A DNA stretch of 64,000 bases from Artocarpus heterophyllus (lineage: Eukaryota; Streptophyta; Magnoliopsida; Rosales; Moraceae). The stretch is taken from positions 29,061,742 through 29,125,741 of the forward strand of contig CM046343.1 in assembly GCA_025403435.1 (NCBI GenBank). Reading direction: 5' to 3'. The notes beneath the pieces are model-generated. The model was not told where the DNA came from. It was given only the letters and a program-made list of their open reading frames with translations, and ran no database searches. Each line of letters starts with the position of its first letter. Position 1 is the stretch's first letter. The translations under genes were made by a program, and so were the position numbers. This document shows, in pieces, positions 12,982 to 55,611 of the stretch.

Positions 12982-14586
12982 TTACCATGATCCTCCACCT
13001 AACATTCCAGTCCAATACCCAGATGAGTCAGCTCCTGCTTGCTCCTTAATATTATTCTGCTCATGAAGAATCCCAGTTGTGCTTGAAACTTGCTTCAAAT
13101 CCTCAAATGGAAAGAAAAGTCTCCCACTAGTACTACTCTCTTGGACATGATTATGAAGAGCACTTGCATAACCACCTCCAGTAGTAGCACCACTCCCAAG
13201 CCCATCAAGGGAGAAATTCAAACTTGGCTTGAATTCAGGCAAAGAATTAAACCCTGACGTAGTACTAGTACTAGTACCATATACTAGTGTGTTAGGATCT
13301 GGTATTGGCATGGGCATGAGGGAACTGAATCCCCTTGAAGTGAGCCCTGTGAGAAGCTCCAAAGCTGAAAGGTGAGATGTTGTTGTTGTAGTACTGGTAG
13401 TACTAGTAGAAGAATTAGTAGAAATATTATTATGGTTCTTGTTGGTGTTGTTGTTTTCAGTATTAATGTTGGGCAACTGAAGCAAGTCAGAAATATTCCT
13501 GAAATCTTGATGATAAGAACTAGCGTTCGATGATGGAAAACCCAAGTTTAGATCTTGGCCCTGATGATTGATGATGATCTTTTGGGGTTGAGTGGTGGAA
13601 GTTGTGGAAGTTGTGGAGGGCTGCACCAGATCAGGAAGCCTAGTAGTGGAAATCTTTGATGAAGAAGATGTTGATGAAGGTGATGATAATGATGATGATG
13701 ATGATCTCTTGTTCTTCCTTGATCCTCCACCAACAGGGATGTTCCTGAGGGAGCCACCTTCAGTCCAGTACCTTCTACAAGTCTTGCAGAAGTATCTGGG
13801 CTGAGTGAGGCTGTAGTTGTTGTAGTAGCAGAACTTTGTGTTGGTTGAATTGCACCTTGGACAGTTTAGGGCTTGCTCTTTCTGTGGCCTTGCCAATTTC
13901 CTCTCTAAATTGCTGTTGTTGTTGGTAATTGCTGGCTTATTATTTGGACATGATGTGTTTGTGACTATCTCTTCTAGTGGTTTCACCACAATCTCCTAAA
14001 AAAAAGTGATTAAAGAAAGTCCATATAACTCACAAGATCAAGGAAAAATTAAAGAAGATCTAAAGGGAAGAAAGAAAGACAAACAAAGAAAAACAATTTT
14101 GAGCTTGCCTTTTTTTTTTTTTTTTTTGCTTTTCAGAAATATAAGATCATAGATATCATCTTTTCCACAAAATGATAGAGTACTGAGAAAAGAAAAAGAA
14201 AAATAAAGATAAAGAAAGGGCTCTCTTTTTAATCCCTTTTATCACATAAGCAAAGAAAAGAAAAAGATAAAGTGAAAAAACGTATTGAAGAACCGATAAG
14301 AACTAGATCCAACCCAAGTGGGGACTTTCGTCCACTAACTACACATGAGCAGTATCATCATCTTTTTCTTTTCTTTTTCATAAAGAAGATCAACACAAAA
14401 AGACATGGCTTCTCTCCTAAAAAAGGAAGAAGGAAAAGAAAAAAGGCCAAAAACCCAAGAAGAGAATTATGTTCTTAATTGAGTAGATCATCATGAAAAT
14501 CAAACCAGCTTGAGGAATTATTATCAATCTCTTTCTATATATATATATATATGTATATATACCTGTGGCCATTGAGCAGTATCCAT
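12982..14586 (-). CDS. Dof zinc-finger transcription factor (DOF4.6/DOF2.5/DOF3.7-like), two exons
   Basis: Plant-specific DNA-binding protein that recognises AAAG cores. Coding exon 1 is 14563-14586 (MDTAQWPQ) and exon 2 is 12982-13995, separated by a 567-nt intron with GT-AG ends; the junction gives [19 protein letters not shown]. Total length is 345 residues. The Dof domain lies at about residues 51-105, with the four zinc ligands Cys53, Cys56, Cys78 and Cys81 in a C-x2-C-x21-C-x2-C arrangement and the [18 protein letters not shown] segment. After it come Ser-, Thr- and Asn-rich low-complexity tracts, and the C-terminus [12 protein letters not shown] typical of this subfamily. MDTAQWPQ at the N-terminus is likewise diagnostic of the DOF4.6/DAG-like clade. 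Reading only exon 2 would miss the true start. The exact orthologue is unresolved. Confidence 0.95.
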
Positions 14587-26225: not shown

Positions 26226-26230
26226 TTGCG
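26226..26230. repeat. 5' target site duplication (TTGCG)
   Basis: TTGCG directly precedes the first LTR and is repeated immediately after the second LTR at 34436-34440, the expected 5-bp signature of LTR-retrotransposon integration. Confidence 0.9.
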
Positions 26231-28204
26231 TGTGACACCCGTTATTCTCCTAACGGGTATTGAGGTAATTAAATTAATTTTTAATGTATAAAAAAAAATT
26301 GCTTCATTTAAATTTATTTTATAATATTTATTTTTATCTATTTTTAAGTTTTCTAAAATTCTCCTATATTTATTTAGTATGATTACTAAAAAGCCTTAGA
26401 ACTTCTAATAAATCTCAAAAATGTCATATTGGCATTATGTGTGTTAAAGTCTTTAGATGAGACATAAGGATATCTTTTCCAACTACTCTTGACCCTCATT
26501 TTCTTTATTTCCTCTGTGACATGCTTCAACATGTCTCCTCTATAATTGTTTCTATCACTTCTCTTCAAAGACTTCATCTTTTCTTCCTTTCTCTTCCACG
26601 GTTCCCACACTCTTCTTCTCATTTCTTTGCTGAAGCAAAATACTTAGAGAACTTCTTCAAGGCAGCCATAAAAATCAGCCACCATCACCTCCATTTGAGC
26701 AAGAATTTCAGTCATACCGAAGTAAAGGAACCTGTTTTGAAGCCATTTCAAGCTTCCAACTAACCATAATCCGAGGTTAGAATCTTATGAACAAATTTAG
26801 TCTTTCATTTATAAATTTTCTTTTATACTAAAGGATTATTCAAATTTGCGTTCTTAAACCTAAGTATATGTTTGTTGCTATTTTGGAGCATATGTATGAA
26901 GTCTAAGTGTATATGCCCTAGACAGAAAATTTATATTGTTAAACTTTATAATACCTCTATGGGCAGTGGTTATTTCTTGAAATTCTAAGATTAAATTAAA
27001 ATAAATTTTATGAATGTAGTTGTATGTTGTGCTTTAGTTTTAATTGTCCTTATGCACGCCTTAGGATCAAGGGAGTATGGAGCTAACGTTAATTGATTCC
27101 AGGATTAAGAGACTGTTGATAAGCTTAAAAGGTAAGGATTCTCTTACTCATCTTTTGTGAGGTTTTTATAGAATTAAAATTGATTGTTTTGCCGCAATAT
27201 ATATATATCTATGTTGAACTGATATTATATGTGTATCACATATGAAACTATGACATGGACTCGTCTTGTATTGTACGGCGAGGAACATAATGAATTGACA
27301 CATGTTATAAATTGAGAAGCATGGTTAGGAAAATTAACTCTATTAATAATGATTTAATATAGAGAAATTGTGAGACATGAAAAGGGCGACGGTTACGTCC
27401 TTGGGCATGAATACCCTAAAAGGTAAAATAGGGGGAAGGTGATGACGCTTCCTTGGGTTGAAAGTCCCAGAACACACTGTACAGGAATTGACTTGGTGAG
27501 GACTCGGGGCTTGATGTCCCCTCACCGGAACACCCTTGGAATGTTTATAGGGTGATCAAGTGCGCCCATTTGGGTTTCGATGAGTTGAGTGATACTCAAT
27601 TTAACATGGATACCTAGGAACAATGATGATTGGTAATATTTGTATAAATGTGTAATTATGACACTTGGTAATGATTAACTACGGTATCCATAAGATGTGA
27701 TCATAATAAACCTCATAATCTGGAATATGATGTGACTTACTAACCATGCAGATTTTAATGTGGTAATGATAAAAACCTAAAGGTGAGTAATGGCTTTCTC
27801 TACTGAGCATAGTGTTGCTCATACCCTTATGTTTATATCTTTTCAGGACTCACTAAGTGTGAGGTGGCTACGAGAAATATAGTTGAGGAAGCGATGTAAC
27901 TATATTACATTGGGACTGCTCAATTGTAAAGAATGTTCTTCATGATAATGTAAGCATCAATTGTTACTTTCTGTGACTGTAATTATAATGTGTTGAGGGT
28001 TAAAATGATGATGACAACAGTTTATATTATTAAATTTAAGGTGCTACATTAAAACTGTGGTTTATTTGTCGTTTATATTTTTATTTTTGAGTTGAGAGTT
28101 TTCATTTAAGTCCCGGGCAAATTTTATTTTTAAGGTTTTACTTTTATTATTTATTTTTATTTTATCTCATTAAAAACTGTTAACCCCCACATAGGGGCGT
28201 TACA
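26231..28204 (+). repeat. 5' LTR
   Basis: 1974 bp, TG...CA ends with a short inverted motif at the left end (CCCGTTA...TAACGGG at about 26238-26257). It differs from the 3' LTR at 26679 (C to T), 26722 (G to C) and 27135 (A to G) and shows no indels by eye. The small open frames in it (such as 26521-26763) are duplicated in both LTRs and look non-coding. Confidence 0.95.
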
Positions 28205-28211
28205 GAATTTT

Positions 28212-28224
28212 TGGTATCAGAGCC
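28212..28224 (+). other. Primer-binding site for initiator methionine tRNA
   Basis: TGGTATCAGAGCC, seven bases after the 5' LTR, is the classical complement of the 3' end of plant initiator tRNA-Met used to prime minus-strand synthesis. Confidence 0.9.
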
Positions 28225-29690
28225 AGGTTCGGTTAACCTAGGGAGTGTAGCACCACTTTAAAAATATATTTTTGAGATGGTTTTGAAGCTGAATTTTCAT
28301 TGTCATCATCAAAATGAACCTTCACATTGATTTATACAGTCTAGAAGGATGTAACATGGAAATGCCATAGAATGAAAATACTAATGGTTATATGAGTACA
28401 ATAATTACATAGAAGGAAAGTATTAATAGTTATGAGGGAATGATAATTATATGGAATGAGTTTATAAGTAGATTGCTTATGAGAGATTCGTATAATATTT
28501 GGATCTATAAGCATATCTAATTCGTATAAACGATGAGAAATTCGTGTAGATACAAGGATTTAATAGCCTTTTATTTTGTGAAAAACAATAAGAAATATAA
28601 GGCTTGATTTATTGATTTTAAAGTTTGACATAGATATGCCAAATTTTTCGTAATTGATTCAAACCTAAGTAATGATTATGTGTGGATTCGATGGAGCACA
28701 TAAGTGTCAATAACTTTTCTTAAAAGTTCTATATATTTGAGGAATATGATATAAGTTGGGAATCATGGTATTGAATCTTGAGAGAGATAAATGTTAGACT
28801 TTTGGTCTATTGAGACTGTGTAAAGTCTAGAATGCATGAATCTCAAAATTGGAATATTTCGTTACGTACATTGTATTTAAGTGTATCAGTGAATCTTTTG
28901 GTTACTTAAGGTTTTGTTATATGAGGAAATTATATATTGTATAAGTAGAATTGTGGGGATTGTAGATGTTCTTAAGTAGTAACATCAAGTGTCTTTGTTC
29001 ATTGATATGGTCTACGTTGGAAGACGTAAATCGTATTGATTTCAAGGTTAGTCGCATTCTAAACCCTTGGTAGCAATGATGATGAATCCATTGATAGATG
29101 TTGAGTATTAGGAATAACATATGGGTGTATGCATTGTTCAATAAGGTTTTGATTAAAACAAAATTATTTGAGTTGCTGGAAGATTGTGTTGTTATGAAAT
29201 GATTTTAAATATCATTCAGGAAGATCCTTGTTGTCGTTAAATTAGATTTGTTGTTCATACTTAACTTATCTATAGTGGACTTTGAATTGGGTTTAAGATT
29301 TATACAAATTGGTTTTCAATTTTATGTTTGTTATTTAACTCGTTCTAAATGTGTTAAGGCCCGAAACAACCTGACCATTTTCAACTAAGAACATTTGGGC
29401 CTAGTTCAAATCTTAAATCAGTTTGATTCACACTGTCTCTCCCACGTGGTCTCTATACGTGTCATATACAGTGGTTTAATCATTGTTTACATATACGTTT
29501 ACTGTGCATAGGAGCTTATTTCTCTGAGTTCACTTTTTCTCTCTTAATTTGTTATTTTCTCTCTAAATCGCAAATCCTCTTCTTTTTCACTAGAAATTCT
29601 TCTTTCCCTCTAAAAAGAAGAAGGAATTCTAGGATTCTGTAATTTACTATCTTAATTTTTCCTTTCTATTTACTCTTCTTTCATCTCATC
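28225..29690 (+). other. Internal 5' non-coding region of the LTR element, with promoter-like 3' end
   Basis: About 1.47 kb with no gag-like frame on either strand. The last 250 bp look like a plant promoter and leader: a CACGTG G-box at 29443-29448, ATACGT motifs, then a pyrimidine-rich stretch from about 29520 (TTTTTCTCTC, TTTCTCTCTA, TTCTTTCCCTC) up to the ATG at 29691. This suggests that the cargo may have brought its own regulatory DNA; that is inference. Confidence 0.45.
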
Positions 29691-30212
29691 ATGGACCCAA
29701 AGTACCAACACCTGAGAAAGTATTTACCATCACTCTCCCAAAAGATTCTCAGAAAGAAATACAAGGCTAGAATTACTCGGTTGTGGATTCTTATGCGTTT
29801 TGGTATCCCTTGTGATGTGAGAATGTTAATAGAGGGGAAAATCCGTCCGAGTGACTTTAGTCAAGATGTCGGTTTACCAGGAACAGGTACCAGTCGTAGT
29901 GCAATGAAAAGAAGAGCTCGTGCCATCGTGGTCACTTGTAACAAATGTGGAAGACAAAATTGTAACGGTAAATGTACTTCACCTGGTTATATGTCTACGA
30001 ATAGAGAGGATAAAATACGGTTTTGTAGGGATGGACTTTCAAAGGAGAACTTGGACAGCATCCATCCTCCTCTCCACGGTCACCCTAGTGGATATGTTCA
30101 AGGAGCTATTTTTAAACTTTGGCCTAAATTTTATACAGAAAGACAACGCCTCAGGAATATGGTATTTCTAGATCCTGTTTGTCAAGCCATAAGAAAACTA
30201 GATGGGGAATAA
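29691..30212 (+). CDS. Basic cysteine-cluster protein resembling plant RNA virus nucleic-acid-binding proteins, retrotransposon-borne
   Basis: A 173-residue ORF from ATG to TAA, uninterrupted. The N-terminal 30 residues are rich in Lys and Arg. A GTGTSRSAMKRRARA segment (residues 64-78) leads straight into a C-x2-C-x4-C-x3-C cluster (Cys83, 86, 91, 95), followed by DKIRFCRDGLS. This order (a glycine/serine turn, an arginine-rich patch, a compact zinc-ribbon-like cluster, then a hydrophobic-basic segment) is the layout I recall for the small cysteine-rich nucleic-acid-binding proteins at the 3' end of betaflexivirus genomes (Pfam Viral_NABP), several of which are silencing suppressors. It is not a gag CCHC knuckle, which would be C-x2-C-x4-H-x4-C. 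The homology is a motif-level judgement without a search. It sits 1.5 kb inside the element and is followed, after 640 bp, by the LOG-like ORF in the same orientation. The alternative is an unrelated retrotransposon accessory ORF. Confidence 0.5.
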   Translation: MDPKYQHLRKYLPSLSQKILRKKYKARITRLWILMRFGIPCDVRMLIEGKIRPSDFSQDVGLPGTGTSRSAMKRRARAIVVTCNKCGRQNCNGKCTSPGYMSTNREDKIRFCRDGLSKENLDSIHPPLHGHPSGYVQGAIFKLWPKFYTERQRLRNMVFLDPVCQAIRKLDGE

Positions 30213-30855
30213 GTCATCGCTCTATAAAGGTTATTTAGTCTTTGCTTATTTGAAGCAGTTTTAGCTGATGTTCAACAGTTTGTGTTTTTCTTTTTCTCAG
30301 AATATTTGCTTTTGTGTTTGAAATAATTGTGATTATTAGATTGATACAGTAAGTGTTAATATCTTATTTAATTTATGATTTTCTTAAATATATATATAAT
30401 AAAATATATTATCTTATCAGACACGTTATATACGGTACAGTAATATGTTTGAATTTTGAAAAGCTTATCCAGATATTTCAAGATTTGTGTCTCAAATTTC
30501 AAAAGTTCTACAGTATTTGTCGTTTATATTAAATTTCTAGACTTGGTGTATATTTGTCAAAAAGTCTACAGTTGTGTCATGAGGGTCTTCTGTCGAATTG
30601 TTCTCAATTGTCAAAAGTTATACAATTAGAGTCTAATCTTTTTCAAAAAGTGAATCAGATTTTCTGTAAACTATCAATCACCTTATCTTACTTTCTTATC
30701 CGCACAAGATTTTGTTTAAATCTTTGGATTACCTTTTCATTACCTACTCGTCTATCTCTTTAGCCCTTCTTGTATATTTCTCATCTTTAAAATCTCATGT
30801 AGAACCCGAAGTCTAAGTGGAGCAGACATTAAGCAACCACTTCTATAAACCAAAT
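30213..30855 (+). other. Non-coding spacer between the two cargo ORFs
   Basis: AT-rich, with no coding signature or conserved splice pattern. It could be a 3' UTR of the first ORF plus the leader of the second. The open frame into the LOG ORF extends back to a GTG at 30817, but the first ATG is at 30856. Confidence 0.5.
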
Positions 30856-31407
30856 ATGTCTACCTCCCAGTCCACGAAGAAAATAAAGAATGTCTGTGTC
30901 TTTTGTGGTTCCAGCTTTGGAAAAGATAAAGCTTATTTAGAAGCTGCAAATCACTTAGGGCAAGTCCTAGCACGCAAAAAGATTAACTTAATCTATGGGG
31001 GTGGTAGTATAAAAATGATGGTAAATATGGCACTAGCAGCTAGGTCTAGCGACGCTACTGATGTAAGAATTTGGCCTCATATTCCAGTTGAAGGAAACCT
31101 TTGTAAGGAAGCCATAGGTAAGGGAGAAGGAGTCAGGAGTATCCCTAAAAATTTTAAAGACATAATCTATAATTCCGATGCTTTTATAGCATTACCTGGT
31201 GGTCTAGGTACTCTTGAGGAAATATTTATAGTTGCTTGTGGGCAATTGTTGGGCTTTTATTCCAAACCTTTGGGACTGCTGAACGTAAAGGGTTTTTATG
31301 ACGGTCTTTTGAAATTTCTAGATTACGCTGTGGAAGAAAACATCACTACAGAATCAGAGAGACAAATCTTTGTCACTGCTTCAACAGCTAAGGAATTGAT
31401 AGATTAA
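30856..31407 (+). pseudogene. LOG-like cytokinin riboside 5'-monophosphate phosphoribohydrolase, intronless and C-terminally truncated
   Basis: 183 residues from ATG to TAA. LOG enzymes release active cytokinin bases from their nucleotides. Family hallmarks seen: VCVFCGSS at 13-20, IYGGGS at 46-51, SDAFIALPGGLGTLEE at about 107-122 (the PGGxGTxxE catalytic/nucleotide motif is intact), KPLGLLNVKGFYDGLL and TASTAKELID. Plant LOG genes have several introns; here all are gone, as expected for a copy that passed through RNA. Departures: Lys53 replaces the usual glycine after YGGGS, the conserved Arg of the MHQRKAEM-like region is not present (IPKNFKDII stands there), and the segment 56-90 is poorly conserved. 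Past the TAA the frame continues in a recognisably LOG-like tail to 31506, interrupted by a second stop (TAG 31447-31449). So the C-terminus was lost by nonsense mutation rather than by truncation of the DNA. Probably a decayed copy; residual function cannot be excluded. Confidence 0.85.
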
Positions 31408-31506
31408 ATGCAAATCATACATCCAGAATCCGACACTGCAACATCCTAGCTTGAATGGGAAAGGGAAAGCCGGGAGCGGCCAATTGATTTGAATCTCCAT
31501 CTGTAA

Positions 31507-32461
31507 TCTTTTTGTTTTATCTTTGGCATGTAGGCATGTGTGTCCGTATTTCGTGTGTTACGAATAACCGTTTACCTTGTATTCTGTGTTTCTTGTGGTA
31601 CGTCGTTGATCAATCTTTTAGATTCATTGAGCCTAATGCCGGGATGGCTGGATACGGAGTACTTGATGCTCTCGAAACGCATCCTTCTTAAGATCCGATC
31701 TTTTGTTTATCGATGTTTTTGTATCCTATAAGCATGCATGATATGGATAGCTGGTATACGGAGTGCCTTGTACTCTCGAAACGTATCCGTATTATGTTTG
31801 TAATGTGTAATATTCTGTTAATATTATGTGGAAGTACCAGAGTCAGTTATGGGGATATTCCATATGAAATATGAGTATATTATTTGGATTGAATGTTTGT
31901 GTCATGAGGATAGCTGTTTAATGAAAAATATGCCGGGTATGTTTGCAACTCTGAGATTCCGTTTAATATCTCTATGAGTAAGTTTAATGTATAGTTTTGA
32001 ATAAAAGCGTTTGTGATATATGTTTTATGATTATGTTTTAGTTTATTAGTTGAGGTATGAAATCAAATATATTTGACTTTTTCTTACTCAAAAAGAAAAA
32101 GGAACCTAAAGATGAAGTATATAAAATTTCTCTGGCAATCTCCTTAAATGTGATTGTAAATCACAGTCCATCGACAATGAAGGACTGGAATCATGATATG
32201 GTCAATATGTATGCCTGATCAGATTCTTAGACTATTATATGGTGTTATAAGTTGAAACTCGTCAGAAATACTCTCATTGAGGGATTTAGGAGTAAGATTT
32301 ATTATGCAAGTAAATAAGTGGAGATACGATAACTTAACTTTGGAAGATAAACAACATTAACGGTTTAGACTCGGAATTGGAATCATAATGGAATTAAAAT
32401 TTTTACTAGTATTGCTAGAATTGAAATTTCGAGGACGAAATTTCTTTAAGGGGGGTAGAGC
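31507..32461 (+). other. Internal 3' non-coding region of the LTR element
   Basis: No ORF of substance. It contains an imperfect 43-bp direct repeat (31642-31684 and 31745-31788; shared GCTCTCGAAACG-like core) and ends in the purine tract before the 3' LTR. Confidence 0.5.
32430..32461 (+). other. Polypurine tract region
   Basis: Reads CGAGGACGAAATTTCTTTAA followed by GGGGGGTAGAGC and then the 3' LTR. The purine-rich block primes plus-strand synthesis; the GAGGACGAAATTT phrase is typical of plant Ty3/Gypsy elements. Confidence 0.85.
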
Positions 32462-34435
32462 TGTGACACCCGTTATTCTCCTAACGGGTATTGAGGTAAT
32501 TAAATTAATTTTTAATGTATAAAAAAAAATTGCTTCATTTAAATTTATTTTATAATATTTATTTTTATCTATTTTTAAGTTTTCTAAAATTCTCCTATAT
32601 TTATTTAGTATGATTACTAAAAAGCCTTAGAACTTCTAATAAATCTCAAAAATGTCATATTGGCATTATGTGTGTTAAAGTCTTTAGATGAGACATAAGG
32701 ATATCTTTTCCAACTACTCTTGACCCTCATTTTCTTTATTTCCTCTGTGACATGCTTCAACATGTCTCCTCTATAATTGTTTCTATCACTTCTCTTCAAA
32801 GACTTCATCTTTTCTTCCTTTCTCTTCCACGGTTCCCACACTCTTCTTCTCATTTCTTTGCTGAAGCAAAATACTTAGAGAACTTCTTCAAGGCAGCCAT
32901 AAAAATCAGTCACCATCACCTCCATTTGAGCAAGAATTTCAGTCATACCGAACTAAAGGAACCTGTTTTGAAGCCATTTCAAGCTTCCAACTAACCATAA
33001 TCCGAGGTTAGAATCTTATGAACAAATTTAGTCTTTCATTTATAAATTTTCTTTTATACTAAAGGATTATTCAAATTTGCGTTCTTAAACCTAAGTATAT
33101 GTTTGTTGCTATTTTGGAGCATATGTATGAAGTCTAAGTGTATATGCCCTAGACAGAAAATTTATATTGTTAAACTTTATAATACCTCTATGGGCAGTGG
33201 TTATTTCTTGAAATTCTAAGATTAAATTAAAATAAATTTTATGAATGTAGTTGTATGTTGTGCTTTAGTTTTAATTGTCCTTATGCACGCCTTAGGATCA
33301 AGGGAGTATGGAGCTAACGTTAATTGATTCCAGGATTAAGAGACTGTTGATAAGCTTAAAAGGTAGGGATTCTCTTACTCATCTTTTGTGAGGTTTTTAT
33401 AGAATTAAAATTGATTGTTTTGCCGCAATATATATATATCTATGTTGAACTGATATTATATGTGTATCACATATGAAACTATGACATGGACTCGTCTTGT
33501 ATTGTACGGCGAGGAACATAATGAATTGACACATGTTATAAATTGAGAAGCATGGTTAGGAAAATTAACTCTATTAATAATGATTTAATATAGAGAAATT
33601 GTGAGACATGAAAAGGGCGACGGTTACGTCCTTGGGCATGAATACCCTAAAAGGTAAAATAGGGGGAAGGTGATGACGCTTCCTTGGGTTGAAAGTCCCA
33701 GAACACACTGTACAGGAATTGACTTGGTGAGGACTCGGGGCTTGATGTCCCCTCACCGGAACACCCTTGGAATGTTTATAGGGTGATCAAGTGCGCCCAT
33801 TTGGGTTTCGATGAGTTGAGTGATACTCAATTTAACATGGATACCTAGGAACAATGATGATTGGTAATATTTGTATAAATGTGTAATTATGACACTTGGT
33901 AATGATTAACTACGGTATCCATAAGATGTGATCATAATAAACCTCATAATCTGGAATATGATGTGACTTACTAACCATGCAGATTTTAATGTGGTAATGA
34001 TAAAAACCTAAAGGTGAGTAATGGCTTTCTCTACTGAGCATAGTGTTGCTCATACCCTTATGTTTATATCTTTTCAGGACTCACTAAGTGTGAGGTGGCT
34101 ACGAGAAATATAGTTGAGGAAGCGATGTAACTATATTACATTGGGACTGCTCAATTGTAAAGAATGTTCTTCATGATAATGTAAGCATCAATTGTTACTT
34201 TCTGTGACTGTAATTATAATGTGTTGAGGGTTAAAATGATGATGACAACAGTTTATATTATTAAATTTAAGGTGCTACATTAAAACTGTGGTTTATTTGT
34301 CGTTTATATTTTTATTTTTGAGTTGAGAGTTTTCATTTAAGTCCCGGGCAAATTTTATTTTTAAGGTTTTACTTTTATTATTTATTTTTATTTTATCTCA
34401 TTAAAAACTGTTAACCCCCACATAGGGGCGTTACA
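32462..34435 (+). repeat. 3' LTR
   Basis: 1974 bp, identical to the 5' LTR apart from 32910, 32953 and 33366. Followed directly by the TTGCG target duplication at 34436-34440. Confidence 0.95.
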
Positions 34436-34440
34436 TTGCG

Positions 34441-48764: not shown

Positions 48765-51700
48765 ATGGGTAGTCTCATTTTCAGTGATGAGAGAGAGGAT
48801 CAGTTTTATGATGCTCGTGATGACCTTTCTTCTGTGTGGGATTTGGATTCTGATTGCTCCGAGGACAGTAAATCTAGTGTTTTGTGTAGATTAAGGTACG
48901 AGGTTTGGGCTGAGAAACTGGGCGGCGTTATGGAGCGTCGTATGAAGTTCTTGAGATGGATGGGTTTGGATTTGGATCACGGTTTTATTGCAAATGAGGA
49001 TAAAAGAAGAGGACTCTCTGGTGATGAAATTGAATTGGATGTTGATAGAGTTAGGCAAAGAAGTGGGGCTGTTCTCAGAACTTCGGTTTTCAAAGAAGGC
49101 TTCTCGTTTACCGAGTCTAGCAGCGTGTCTTGCTTGTCGACTGGGGCTTCGGATTCTACGAGGAACGGTGCTTTGCAAGAGAATTTCTTCTGTAAAGCTG
49201 GGAATTTGAATGACGAACAGGGGTATGCAAAGGAGGAATTTGGCCAAGGTGATATGGTTGGCAGGTTATGCGTAGTAGCCCGTTCAGAGCAATTGGGTCT
49301 TTCAGAGGAGTTTCGGAGAGACCACGGGCCATCTTTTTCGGTTGAGGATGCTAGGCATTTTGTTGATGTCAAGAAGAAAGCTAAGAGGGGTGGTTGGCTG
49401 AGAAGATTAGGTATTGGGATGTGCGTCGTTGATACGAATGGAGACTCTGCTCTTAGTCCCGGTGTTGTTCAGGGGACAACAGGTGCAGGGTTGCAGAGGG
49501 TTCAGGTCTATTCGTATAGAAAGTGTATCAAGGAACTTTCTTCCCTTCATGCTGGACAAGAGTTTAAGGCGCACGAGGGTTCGATACTTAAAATGAAGTT
49601 CAGTCTTGATGGTCATTACTTGGCAAGTGCCGGTGAAGATGGTATTGTGCGCGTGTGGAGGGTGAACGAAGATGAAAGATCAAACAAGTTCGACATTGCC
49701 AGTGATTCTTCTTGCCAGTGTTTCACAATTGATCACTTGTCGAAGCTAGATCCTTTGGTGGTGGATAAAGAGAAACATTGTAAGGCAAACAAGTTTAGGA
49801 GATCGTCTCATTCAGCTTGTGTCATGTTCCCTCCTAAAATGTTCAATATACTGGACAAGCCTCTGCATGAATTCCGAGGACACAGTGGTCAGGTGTTGGA
49901 TCTCTCATGGTCAAGCAAAGGGGTTAGTAACCTCTTGTCATCATAAGAAAGCAATTTTTTTGAGCTGTTTTATCCTAGTTTTACTTGAGGAAGATTCTAG
50001 GAATCTTCTTTTTTTTTTTGGGTTTTGAAATGATTGTGGCAGGCGTCATATTCTAGTTGGTAAACATATTTATGGAAAGTTGTGAATTAAGAATTTAAAA
50101 TTACAAAATTAGTTGTGTAGAACATGTGATCCCTTGCATTAGCATTTCCCTTCACTTGAAAGTTTTTACATTTCCGTAGCTTAAAGATCTTGTTTTGCAC
50201 TTCTTTATTTGTATGCTTGTTTTTTGTTTTTATCAGTTTCCAAACTTTTGATACATATGCCCTTTTTATCTTCTTTATATGTCATGCAGTTTTTGCTCTC
50301 ATCATCAATTGATAAGACGGTTCGTTTGTGGCAAGTGGGATGCGATAGATGCCTTAGGGTTTTTTGTCATAATAATTATGGTGAGCTTTTTGCTGCTTTC
50401 TGTAGATCAGCATCGCTTCCATGCGAATCCTTTTTTTTTTCCCTTTAATTTGGTGCAGATTGCTTATTTGTTGATTGTTGTGGTTGATGCAGTCACCTGT
50501 GTTGATTTCAACCCTCTGGACGATAATTATTTCATTAGTGGTTCAATAGATGGAAAAGTTCGAATTTGGGAAGTCTGTCACTGTCGGGTTGTTGATTACA
50601 TTGATATTCGAGAGATAGTTACTGCCGTGTCTTACCGCCCCGATGGAAAGGTCTGTCTAAGGACTTGTTCCTCGGAAGTAATTAGTTAATTGTGATAATT
50701 GCAATCAATTGTACTAATCTTACATCTAACAGTTCTACTAAAATACTTGCAGGGAGGAATTGTAGGCTCCATGACAGGGACCTGTCTATTCTATAATATC
50801 ATAGGTAAAAGCTAAATTCATCTCACTCTTCTTCTGCTTCACTAGAGCTTATATTGGCTTAGCACTAGTAGAAGATTTGGATCTAAGCAAAATTTGAAGT
50901 ATTTTGGTTTGGTTGAGAGAGAGAAATAGTAGAAGAGAGATTGGGGAAAGTGAATTAGTGAGCATGAAGTTACGTATGGTGTGTCTTTAATCTAGAATTA
51001 GACATGTAAAGAAATCCTTGAATTTGTTGGAAGGATTTCATTGAAATGATTTGGTATGTTTTTCCTCCTTTTTCAAGTTCATGTCAACTGTGTTTGTAGA
51101 TGATCGTCTGCAATTGGATGCTCAAATTTGTTTACAAGGAAAAAAGAAGTCAGCAGGCAACAGGATTACAGGATTTCAGGTAGTTGAATCATAAAATCCA
51201 TTTTGTTAAAGTGAGCTTTGCATTTCCGCCTTGTTACTTTACTGCCATACATTCTAACTTTGGAGTTTTCAGTTTACTCCAAGTGACCCAAGTAAGGTCA
51301 TGGTCACCTCTGCAGATTCGTTGGTCCGTATTGTCTGCAGGAACAATGTCATCTGCCAATTTAGAGGTGCGTGGTAATATTATTTGTTGTAACTTGTAAT
51401 TATGAAGTATTGATTCTTTCATCTGCTTTGTTGATAGATAAGTTTCTTTAGTTGCTACCAAGCTTTATGATATCACTTGTGTGGTTTGCTTTTGGGCATG
51501 TGAATGTTCAAGATGATCAAGTCTTTTAAACTCCAATATAAACGAAATCTAATGTTTATCTCTTTTCTTTTCCATGTTTAGGTCTTCGAAACACAGGAAG
51601 CCAGATGTCTGCATCTTTTACCTCAGACGGGAAACACATTGTTTCGGCTGCCGACGATTCCAGTGTCTATATCTGGAACTACACTAACCTGGAGAAGTCT

Positions 51701-52156
51701 TCTTCGCATACAAAGAGCATATGGTCTTCTGAGAGTTTCCTGTCACACAATGCATCAATTGCAATACCTTGGTGTGGTTCGAAAACCTCACCGGACGCAA
51801 TTCCATCTCCTACACTCATTAGGGACACACGGGGAAGCGAGCATTGCCAAAAGCATCCCAATCTCGAGGAGCATCGAGAACAAAAAGTGTCCATCGCTTC
51901 GCCTGATTGTTTCTCCTTGAGCGGGTCTTTGGAGTCCTTGCCGAGGGGAACTGCAACTTGGCCCGAAGAAAAACTTGTCAACTCGAGTCCCATGGCAATT
52001 TCTCCCACAACGATTACCTCCAAGTTCAGGCTCTTGAGGAGTGCTTTGCAGAGTATGTCCGGTTCTCCTCACATGTGGGGTCTTGTTATTGTAACCGCCG
52101 GCTGGGATGGACGGATTAGAACCTTTCTCAATTACGGGCTGCCAATTCGCATCTGA
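48765..52156 (+). CDS. WD40-repeat protein (WDR44-like plant family), seven exons
   Basis: Exons 48765-49922, 50290-50380, 50493-50650, 50753-50804, 51100-51179, 51273-51366 and 51582-52156; all introns are GT-AG and the phases close to a 735-residue protein. The N-terminal 260 residues are acidic and low in repeats ([21 protein letters not shown]), with a basic [14 protein letters not shown] stretch near 205-220. WD blades follow: about 268-305 ([20 protein letters not shown]...VRVWRV), 373-405 (split by intron 1), 417-450 ([15 protein letters not shown]), 460-486, 508-535, 553-580 and, after a Ser-rich insert with SPMAISPTT, a last blade near 710-732 ([14 protein letters not shown]). A seven-blade propeller is therefore likely. 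Such proteins are usually scaffolds; animal WDR44 binds Rab11, but the role in plants is not established from sequence. No truncation seen. Confidence 0.93.
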
Positions 52157-53837: not shown

Positions 53838-55611
53838 AGGGTTATTAATACCTGTAACCCCTCAACTTTGAGGTATTCTTTACTTTGGCCCTTGTATTTT
53901 AAAAAGCATTATTTTGCCCCTTTAATTTTTAAAATTCCTCACTTTGCCCCTTCCATCCCTTATTTAGTTAAATAAACGGATTTTTTTTACCCATGTGACT
54001 TGTACATGGGTCAATTTAAGGACAAAAGCGAAAATTTAGATCTACAACTTCTTCATCATGTTTAGGGCTTGGGAGATTTTTTGTTAGATTATTTTTATTT
54101 TTATACCTTGCCTTTTAAGGTTATCAATGCTTTATACCTTGTATTTTGAACTTTATCTATTTATACCTTTAAATTTCGAATCTATACACTTACCATTTCT
54201 CGGGTCAACATTTAATTTTAACTACAAAAGGCCTAAACACTGTTAAATTAAAACTGAAAATGCATATAAAAAAATGAGAAAACGCTAATGTTTTTAAAAT
54301 GTGAAGGACATGCAAGTATTTTACACAGTCAAAATCAAACTTTGACATCAAAAAGTTAAGAATTTGATATAAATTTAAATATGAAGGTGTAAAAATGTTA
54401 AAGTTTAAAATATGAAGTATGATTTTTCAATAACCTAAAAATATAGGGTATAAAAATAAAAATAACCTTTTTTTGTTTGAGGCCTTTTTTTTTTTTTTCC
54501 TTTTTGCTAGGAAAAAAAAAAAAACCTTTTAACTTGGAGAAAACGATTCCCTCTTTGAATTTCTTTTGTTATTGTTTCTTTGGCTTTTCTTTTTTCTTAT
54601 TCCAGAGAAAGAGAAAAAGAGATTGAGATCGCAGTGATGACTCCATAAAATTAGAGCTCAACACACTGAAATGCAGGCTTCTCTTCGTTTAGAACTTTGT
54701 GTGTCGACGACCCGGCTGAACTGAGCTCTCTCTCTCTCTCTTTCTCACTCTCTATCCTCATTTTTTTTTCTTGATTGATTTATTTTCTCAATTTTCAATT
54801 ATTATTTTTTTATCTTTTTCCAATTGTGTGGAAAATATTGTGTTTGCCATGAGGATATCTAAGCTCCCTCTTTTGATTAAGGTTGAGGAAAATTGCTCTC
54901 AGAATCGAATCTAAAACCTTAAATTGCCACCATTGAGTACACACATTATATCCCCCAATTGTGGTTTTTTTTAACTCTGTTGTATGTGTTTTTTTTTAAC
55001 TCTTTTGTCTTTTGTTTGATGGGGATGAAGCAATATGAATAGTCCAACAATTGATTTGAGATACAGCTATGTCGAGTGATGCCAATTTATTTGCTTCTGA
55101 ATCTGCTTATGTTTTAAAATGCCAATTCCATTTAAATCAATATATAATGTATTGATGGTGAGTGTTTTCCCTAGGTTAATCATTTTTTTTTTCACAGCAG
55201 AAAAGGAAAAAAAAGTTTCTGTTCCCTGTTTGGTATTGGTCTTGGAGTTTATGAAAATGATTTTGCACATTTTTTGAGGTAAAAATTTTAAAAAGAGTCG
55301 TCGCAATTATCAAAAAATTCATATTTTTTAAAATAAAACAATTTCACTTATTTTTAAAATACTAACAAACAGAATCAGATCTAACCCCTAACATGATGAC
55401 AGAGTTGTAGATCTAAATTTTTTATTTTGCCCTGAAATTGACTGATGTACAAGTCACATGGGTAAAAAAAATCTGTTTATTTTAACCAAAAAAAGGAGAC
55501 GAAAGGAGTAAATTGAGGACTTTTAAAAGTTGAAGGCACAAGATGGTAATTTTAAAGTTTAGAGTAAAATAAGAGATACCTCAAAGTTAGGAAATATTGG
55601 TGTTAATACCT
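53838..55611. mobile_element. Long-TIR (MULE-like) element with a nested MITE
   Basis: Two arms of about 235 bp (53838-54075 and 55375-55611) are inverted copies. Shared phrases are CAACTTTGAGGTAT, ACCCATGTGACTTGTACAT and AAATTTAGATCTACAACT in the left arm, each found reversed in the right arm. Between them are 1.3 kb with no transposase: a nested MITE (54089-54465), a GA/CT-rich patch (54600-54760) with some gene-like composition, and AT-rich sequence. Confidence 0.75.
54089..54465. mobile_element. Nested MITE with 19-bp perfect terminal inverted repeats
   Basis: Begins TTATTTTTATTTTTATACC and ends GGTATAAAAATAAAAATAA, an exact inverse, 377 bp apart. It lies entirely inside the long-TIR element, so it inserted later. 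No ORF. Confidence 0.7.

Follow-up and report, generated by a model that had tools for sequence, protein, structure and literature searches.

Structure of the element

The window, a stretch of 64 000 nt from Artocarpus heterophyllus (contig CM046343.1), contains an LTR retrotransposon at 26231–34435. Dof and WD40 genes say no more about the source than that this is plant DNA, Dof proteins being plant-specific. Its two LTRs, each of 1974 bp and lying on the forward strand at 26231–28204 (5′) and 32462–34435 (3′), start with TGTGACACCC and end with GGGCGTTACA, with TG...CA ends, and are flanked by a target-site duplication TTGCG (26226–26230 and 34436–34440). A primer binding site (PBS), TGGTATCAGAGCC, at 28212–28224 (+) begins 8 nt past the final base of the left LTR. 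A polypurine tract (PPT), AAGGGGGG, with its junction to the 3′ LTR, is at 32448–32461 (+), the tract itself occupying 32448–32455 and ending six bases short of the right LTR. All these features of an LTR retrotransposon are as claimed in the original prediction; the LTRs differ at 3 of 1974 positions, which indicates youth.

The PBS has a sequence that fits the Met-tRNA type, and we take it to be that of the initiator Met-tRNA; the element has no reverse transcriptase or chromodomain by which its lineage could be classified. A PBS of this kind fits a chromovirus or a Ty1/copia element and not, according to PMC6317226, the non-chromoviruses.

Past the 5′ LTR, a leader (28205–29690, +) with 36 ATG triplets is followed by two main sense ORFs in tandem, again as predicted: ORF1 (29691–30212, +; 173 aa), which is open, and ORF2 (30856–31407, +; 183 aa from its ATG), with a stop codon at 31405–31407. 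The only other interior frame of at least 80 aa is a GTG-started one of 83 aa that overlaps ORF1. When the interior was simulated 300 times with a first-order Markov model, the longest ATG-started ORF reached at most 138 aa (median 70 aa); the two ORFs are therefore longer than chance would give. A G-box-like CACGTG occurs in the leader at 29443, and the many ATG triplets ahead of the ORFs suggest that these may be spliced or use a promoter of their own.

Of at least 23 stretches of untranslated interior without stops, leader pieces included, 10 were compared with Pfam, which detected neither gag nor pol in them; the sole match in those 10 was Apq12 with E-value 0.09. As no gag-pol was found in the pieces and ORFs examined, we call the element non-autonomous, and the description of it as young and non-autonomous stands. 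LTRs, PBS and PPT without gag-pol are also the make-up of other non-autonomous LTR elements, large retrotransposon derivatives among them; those usually have no coding capacity, whereas this element has two ORFs.

ORF1 and the flexivirus nucleic-acid-binding proteins

The ORF1 product carries a zinc finger of the form C-x2-C-x4-C-x3-C (Cys at residues 83, 86, 91 and 95), and these four Cys are kept in 104, 106, 108 and 106 of 109 aligned proteins. When 13 aligned members of this nucleic-acid-binding protein (NABP) family were compared with Pfam at E-value ≤0.1, 12 matched the model Carla_C4 and 10 matched Viral_NABP; precomputed domains of these two kinds are present on many of the relatives. 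In the profile check that had been proposed for both ORFs, ORF2 matched the LONELY GUY (LOG) family, while the element's own NABP matched both models but stayed under the gathering scores (16.3 versus 23 bits and 13 versus 20.9 bits).

A structure model built from the 109-sequence alignment (pLDDT 82.7) replaced an earlier, poor one made from 13 sequences (pLDDT 53.3). In a Foldseek search of a viral library, 13 of its 15 top matches were named as nucleic-acid- or RNA-binding proteins or silencing suppressors of flexuous plant viruses; the other two were the ‘15kDa protein’ of Cherry mottle leaf virus and a nameless entry, and at rank 16 the probability was down to 0.06. The predicted fold is thus common to the NABP and its viral counterparts, although at weak E-values (best 0.009, none ≤0.001). 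Searches of the PDB with the NABP gave no significant match either by sequence (three matches, best E-value 0.3) or by fold (17 matches, best E-value 3.9). Judged by sequence and model, ORF1 is a flexivirus-type zinc-finger NABP gene, which agrees with the kinship to cysteine-rich proteins of flexuous plant viruses that had been proposed for it. By eye, the protein has a basic character.

A profile search returned 937 relatives (E-value ≤1e-3) among 3071 candidates, with one cluster of 566 members; the matches listed, the best 120 of the 937, include genes of Populus, Xanthoceras, Acer, Gossypium, Hibiscus and Orobanche. Because the search finds this many relatives, some of them named plant genes, the NABP is not private cargo of the element. 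A close relative, P0001, has 96% identity to ORF1, and in the NABP tree the element copy sits on the longest inner branch (0.82), shared with P0001–P0003. We also considered the N-terminal part of the broomrape protein P0231, which seemed to resemble a gypsy protease, as a protease placed ahead of a NABP; Pfam and the PDB gave no confirmation, and we draw nothing from it.

The NABPs of flexiviruses, such as p12 of chrysanthemum virus B (PMC7588395) and the CRP of potato virus M (PMC10219291), share with ORF1 the four-Cys zinc finger and the predicted fold; in contrast to them, the ORF1-related genes sit in plant genomes, in large clusters, and a role in silencing would here be a predicted one. 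Another flexivirus-related chromosomal sequence with retrotransposon-like sequence nearby is CsFRLS1 of cucumber, but according to PMC3136472 it is a fragment of a betaflexivirus replicase in one species, while ORF1 belongs to a NABP gene family. Judged from protein conservation alone, the NABP is most likely the part of the element under lasting selection. Its kinship suggests that it most likely acts like carlavirus p12, dampening RNA silencing, working in the nucleus, or both.

ORF2 and the loss of LOG active-site residues

ORF2 belongs by sequence to the LOG family: it keeps the motif PGGxGTxxE, matches AtLOG3 in the PDB (2a33, 3e-40) and has 98% identity to a close relative, P0013, a protein of 216 aa. 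LOG ancestry, as had been claimed, is therefore the reading that the sequence gives, but the gene is larger than the ORF. In register with P0013, the LOG frame goes on past the stop at 31405–31407 and a second one at 31447–31449 up to 31503, so that a remnant of the LOG C-terminus lies at 31408–31506 (+) and the copy is truncated by 33 residues. The remnant still spells an ending of the LxLxL type, IDLNLHL; located behind two stops, this tail is not part of the ORF2 product, which consequently has no C-terminal EAR motif.

Of the catalytic pair Arg99/Glu122 (CgLOG numbering) the Glu is kept, while the Arg is replaced by Asn in both ORF2 and P0013; in ORF2 the equivalents of Met96, His97, Lys100 and Trp129 are replaced as well. 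In CgLOG, putting alanine in place of AMP-binding or catalytic residues leaves almost no activity, Ser19 being the exception (PMC4979012). With these residues lost and the copy truncated by two stops, cytokinin activation by ORF2, which the original prediction had suggested, is very unlikely as judged from its sequence. Given the truncation, some of the cargo at least must be decaying or not needed in the element.

These observations bear on the idea that the element has newly collected a viral suppressor of silencing together with a LOG that actively releases cytokinin, and spreads through meristems with the two. Both ORFs are indeed open and in the sense direction, PGGxGTxxE is kept and the NABP is like the silencing suppressors of flexiviruses; still, the active-site changes, read against the CgLOG alanine results (PMC4979012), and the two stops speak against an active enzyme, and the wide distribution of both families speaks against recent collection. 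We regard this explanation as highly improbable, and the suggestion that the element assembled its own cargo is not supported either: both genes come from large families present in many plants.

The LOG clade and its tail

In the LOG tree ORF2 and P0013 fall inside a clade of 102 rows (SH-aLRT 100). Of the 110 clade-type rows, 108 have L, M or I at the Lys100 equivalent, which is replaced in 109 of them; all nine rows outside the clade have K there. Among the matches listed, an LxLxL repressor-like tail ends 80 of the 99 clade LOG proteins of at least 205 aa, and on the tree (rows of at least 205 aa) this tail needs at least eight changes of state. ORF2 shares with P0013 the longest inner branch (1.23); as each of the two ORF products sits on the longest inner branch of its own tree, both are divergent members of their families. 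The tree did not favour a separate capture of a host LOG by the element, with caution due to long branches in a quick tree without bootstrap, where the placing of so long a branch is unsure.

The EAR (LxLxL) motif is linked to TOPLESS. As the lysine has changed and an LxLxL tail has been gained, we read the LOG of this clade as a putative regulator with a LOG fold and not as an ordinary enzyme that releases cytokinin, with a predicted role for the tail. LONELY GUY phosphoribohydrolases such as AtLOG3 (2a33) and CgLOG share with ORF2 the sequence family and PGGxGTxxE; they differ from it in the catalytic Arg and the adenine- and prenyl-site residues, which ORF2 is without, and from its clade in the lysine, lost clade-wide, and in the LxLxL tail on most full-length members.

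One could suppose instead that the clade consists of enzymes acting on another nucleotide, with the lysine change shifting specificity and the element's lineage being a dead branch. Retention of the Arg99 equivalent in 99, and of the Glu122 equivalent in 108, of the 110 clade-type rows would agree with that; against it, the residue replaced in 109 of 110 rows belongs to the adenine site in CgLOG (PMC4979012), and catalysis leaves the LxLxL tail unexplained. We think this quite unlikely.

Comparison with known elements

Steinbauerova et al. (2011) reportedly described two Athila-like elements with similarity to LOGL4. A LOG-like (YgdH) additional domain in Ty3/gypsy elements of Citrus, and with a looser filter also of Populus, is described in PMC9289625, which cites that study; LOG ORFs in such elements are therefore already known, which is a further point against cargo assembled by the present element itself. 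Like those elements, ours is a plant LTR retrotransposon with an extra LOG-family ORF inside, but here no gag-pol was found, a NABP gene is added and LOG active-site residues are lost. It also differs in its Met-tRNA-type PBS, a kind not used by non-chromoviruses (PMC6317226). In Phalaenopsis, an AlkB-type RNA demethylase likewise represents an extra ORF of a kind known in flexiviruses and fixed in a Ty3/gypsy lineage, although, according to PMC9289625, the protein is a different one and the elements are large and carry gag-pol.

In the open-licence literature we found no report of a NABP or carlavirus-like gene in plant retrotransposons, of an EAR tail on retrotransposon LOGs, or of a described element with both genes, as had also been stated at the outset; such an absence is weak. 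Counters to silencing in plant transposable elements are known in few cases, e.g. the VANC anti-silencing proteins. A large plant family related to viral silencing suppressors, found inside a retrotransposon, would be a direct anti-silencing candidate. The LOG clade, with its lost lysine and its LxLxL tail, leads to a clear and testable prediction, that of a hormone enzyme turned regulator inside mobile elements.

Interpretation and possible linkage of the two genes

The explanation we prefer, with a probability of roughly 0.58, is that of a young non-autonomous LTR retrotransposon in which two accessory genes replace gag-pol, the NABP being selected and the LOG clade having turned regulator. 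The element would depend on a Met-tRNA-primed partner whose gag-pol mobilises it in trans, the place of its own gag-pol having been taken by genes from two large families widespread in eudicots. The silencing or nuclear function suggested for the NABP by its kinship would benefit the element family. The second gene would descend from a captured plant LOG gene, in whose clade an active-site lysine was exchanged and an EAR-like C-terminus of the LxLxL kind arose; further active-site residues would have been lost in the element's lineage, and the tail also in the element's copy.

The truncation of the LOG and the loss of its active-site residues would also be expected if the element had passively picked up a chromosomal stretch with two unrelated relics, neither of which matters to it, and plant LTR elements are known to transduce genes (PMC7264820). 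However, both families are large and include numerous full-length proteins from several families of plants, and P0001 (96%) and P0013 (98%) are evidence that the lineage has further sequences. Moreover, the cotton gene model P0215 unites NABP and LOG, a NABP running into a LOG C-terminal tail (3e-9 to P0093 and 1e-6 to P0061, each from a single BLASTP comparison). Passive cargo is thus a somewhat unlikely explanation.

Returning to accessory genes in place of gag-pol, the cotton gene model suggests an old paired cassette; together with the large clusters and the published LOG cases it also leads us to infer that the relatives reside in retrotransposons. One could speculate further that retrotransposons of eudicots harbour an old cassette of two genes for manipulating the host, in which the NABP would suppress silencing or reprogram transcription, while a captured LOG, as an EAR-tailed pseudo-enzyme, would recruit TOPLESS and disturb cytokinin or meristem signalling. 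Such a cassette would have been picked up by non-autonomous elements with unrelated LTRs, and the NABP gene exchanged between flexiviruses and retrotransposons in either direction. We hold this wider scenario to be unlikely as a whole.

Scans of viral contigs with either protein, or with alignments of either family, yielded nothing usable, the one LOG match (L001) being weak. The protein P0223 ends in NLSLSL, which is too short to count as a LOG-like tail. As a further hint of linkage elsewhere, the contig given for the NABP P0145 and that given for the LOG P0080 both measure 8723 bases, an equality that may be a coincidence.

Structure and age of the element

The original prediction of a non-autonomous LTR retrotransposon at 26231-34435 proved right: the LTR pair (26231-28204 and 32462-34435), a target-site duplication, a primer site and a polypurine tract are all present, and two ORFs occupy an interior where Pfam found no gag-pol in 10 stop-free pieces (of 23 listed). 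Between the two LTRs, 3 of 1974 positions differ. At plant substitution rates of about 0.7-1.3 x 10^-8 per site per year, this divergence dates the insertion to roughly 0.06-0.11 million years ago. No further copy of the LTR or the interior was found within the window.

Interior ORFs of at least 80 aa are those for the flexivirus-type nucleic-acid-binding protein (NABP; 29691-30212, plus strand, 173 aa) and the LONELY GUY (LOG) family protein (30856-31407, plus strand, 183 aa), together with an 83-aa GTG frame overlapping NABP; NABP and LOG are each longer than the longest ORF across 300 simulated interiors. Because 36 ATG triplets stand in the leader upstream of the NABP start, simple scanning of an unspliced LTR transcript is unlikely to yield this protein, and we infer expression from an internal promoter or through splicing. 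A G-box (CACGTG) at 29443-29448, about 250 bases upstream of the NABP start, is a possible internal promoter element.

The virus-like gene

The virus-like NABP gene is the more interesting half of the element. Taken alone, its product scored under the Pfam cut-offs for both Viral_NABP (16.3 bits; cut-off 23) and Carla_C4 (13 bits; cut-off 20.9). At E≤0.1, Carla_C4 was matched by 12 of 13 aligned family members (best E 3.5e-7) and Viral_NABP by 10 of 13 (best E 1.9e-7). The single-sequence search returned 12 relatives out of 134 candidates, the profile search 937 out of 3071 at E≤1e-3. Among the 120 matches listed, the named sources include Populus, Xanthoceras, Acer, Gossypium, Hibiscus and Orobanche, and a single cluster represents 566 sequences. 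Cysteines 83, 86, 91 and 95 are conserved in 104, 106, 108 and 106 of 109 aligned proteins, respectively.

An AlphaFold2 model was built from 109 sequences (mean pLDDT 82.7, pTM 0.66). Among solved structures, neither sequence nor fold searches with NABP gave a significant match; of the 48 matches that Foldseek gave at E≤10 against a viral structure library, none reached E≤0.001. The top 15 (probabilities 0.57-1.00, E-values 0.009-1.1) include 13 proteins of flexuous plant viruses named as nucleic-acid- or RNA-binding proteins or RNA silencing suppressors; the other two are a Cherry mottle leaf virus '15kDa protein' and an entry without a name. At rank 16 the probability falls to 0.06; an unnamed match at rank 18 has 0.69. 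We make the assignment because family profile, motif and fold agree, no single score carrying the case: judged by sequence and predicted fold, NABP belongs to a family, widespread in plant genomes, that is akin to viral silencing suppressors.

The LOG gene

The top solved-structure match of LOG was Arabidopsis 2a33 (E 3e-40), identified as AtLOG3 in passages of PMC4979012. The same passages, on CgLOG, propose Arg99 and Glu122 as catalytic, place Met96, Lys100 and Glu121 at the adenine site, and report activity almost abolished by alanine at crucial residues, Ser19 excepted. The nearest protein, P0013 (98% identity, 216 aa; a cluster of 8 sequences and 12 contigs), is matched by the window frame until the stop at 31405-31407. 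Beyond it lie 32 more codons, which include a second stop at 31447-31449 and end in IDLNLHL; the terminal stop is at 31504-31506. Both proteins retain the equivalents of the two Glu residues and carry I, P, N, F and G for Met96, His97, Arg99, Lys100 and Trp129. With these active-site residues replaced, cytokinin release by the window copy is very unlikely, and the hormone activation earlier proposed for this ORF is left unsupported.

We aligned the window protein with 120 listed of 5171 relatives. In all nine rows outside its clade (three Musa/Ensete, three Xanthoceras, three others) M, H, R, K and W are intact at the five positions. With the window and P0013 set aside, 110 rows are of clade type, 10 of which, under 190 aa and absent from the tree, were placed by exclusion; the lysine is replaced by L, M or I in 108 of them and by H in one, and kept as K in one; the arginine is retained in 99. 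An EAR-like (repressor-type) LxLxL motif lying in the nine C-terminal residues occurs in 80 of the 120 listed proteins (80 of 99 among those of at least 205 aa) and in 0 of 9 outside rows, requiring at least eight changes on the tree of rows of at least 205 aa. Tails such as KRKLDLTLRL inside the clade versus SKRRRLD outside it suggest that the motif was gained through C-terminal extension. A quick tree built without bootstrap places the window and P0013 within a clade of 102 rows supported at SH-aLRT 100, where they share the longest inner branch (1.23). The gene is best read as descending from an enzyme that would have become a regulator within its clade and is now decaying in the element's copy. 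Against the mechanistic reading, the NABP in the window scores weakly, both trees show the window lineage to be divergent, and the LOG is truncated.

Origin of the pair

In a cotton gene model (P0215) NABP runs on into a tail that aligns with the LOG C-terminus (BLASTP 3e-9 and 1e-6, single comparisons), and an NABP (P0145) and a LOG (P0080) each come with a contig of 8723 bases. The gene model and the shared figure speak for an old NABP-LOG order but fall short of proof. Beyond the NABP end, P0215 and two other relatives (P0223, P0182) share a stretch, F-K-P-x-L-D-V/I-K-P-x-E-D-V, which may point to a conserved region, or a splice form, lying between the two genes.

The LOG carriers of Steinbauerova 2011 are said to be Athila-like, and LOG reports from Citrus and Populus reportedly agree with that work. 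If those carriers are Athila-like, the LOG gene here lies between LTRs of another lineage, and template switching would be a likely route for such an LTR swap. Neumann 2019 (PMC6317226) assigns tRNA-Met priming to most chromoviruses and to those Ty1/copia lineages whose primers are complete tRNAs, and states that non-chromoviruses do not use it. Ty3/gypsy consensus elements with LOG (YgdH) domains are described in PMC9289625 for Citrus and, with a looser filter, for Populus. Titles and abstracts of open-licence literature yielded no report of NABP in retrotransposons or of the NABP-LOG pair; an endogenised betaflexivirus replicase-like sequence is noted for cucumber in an excerpt of PMC3136472.

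Neighbouring features

A long minus-strand ORF at 12982-13995 encodes a Dof zinc-finger domain (PF02701, E 6e-34); it marks a plant transcription-factor gene and indicates that the host is a plant. Two plus-strand ORFs with WD40 repeats (PF00400), at 48765-49946 (E 3.5e-12) and 51542-52156 (E 1.2e-5, just under the cut-off), are perhaps exons of a single gene. The C/D-box snoRNAs snoZ107_R87 and snoR31, near each other at 54627-54730 and 55016-55106 (plus strand), may form a plant snoRNA cluster.
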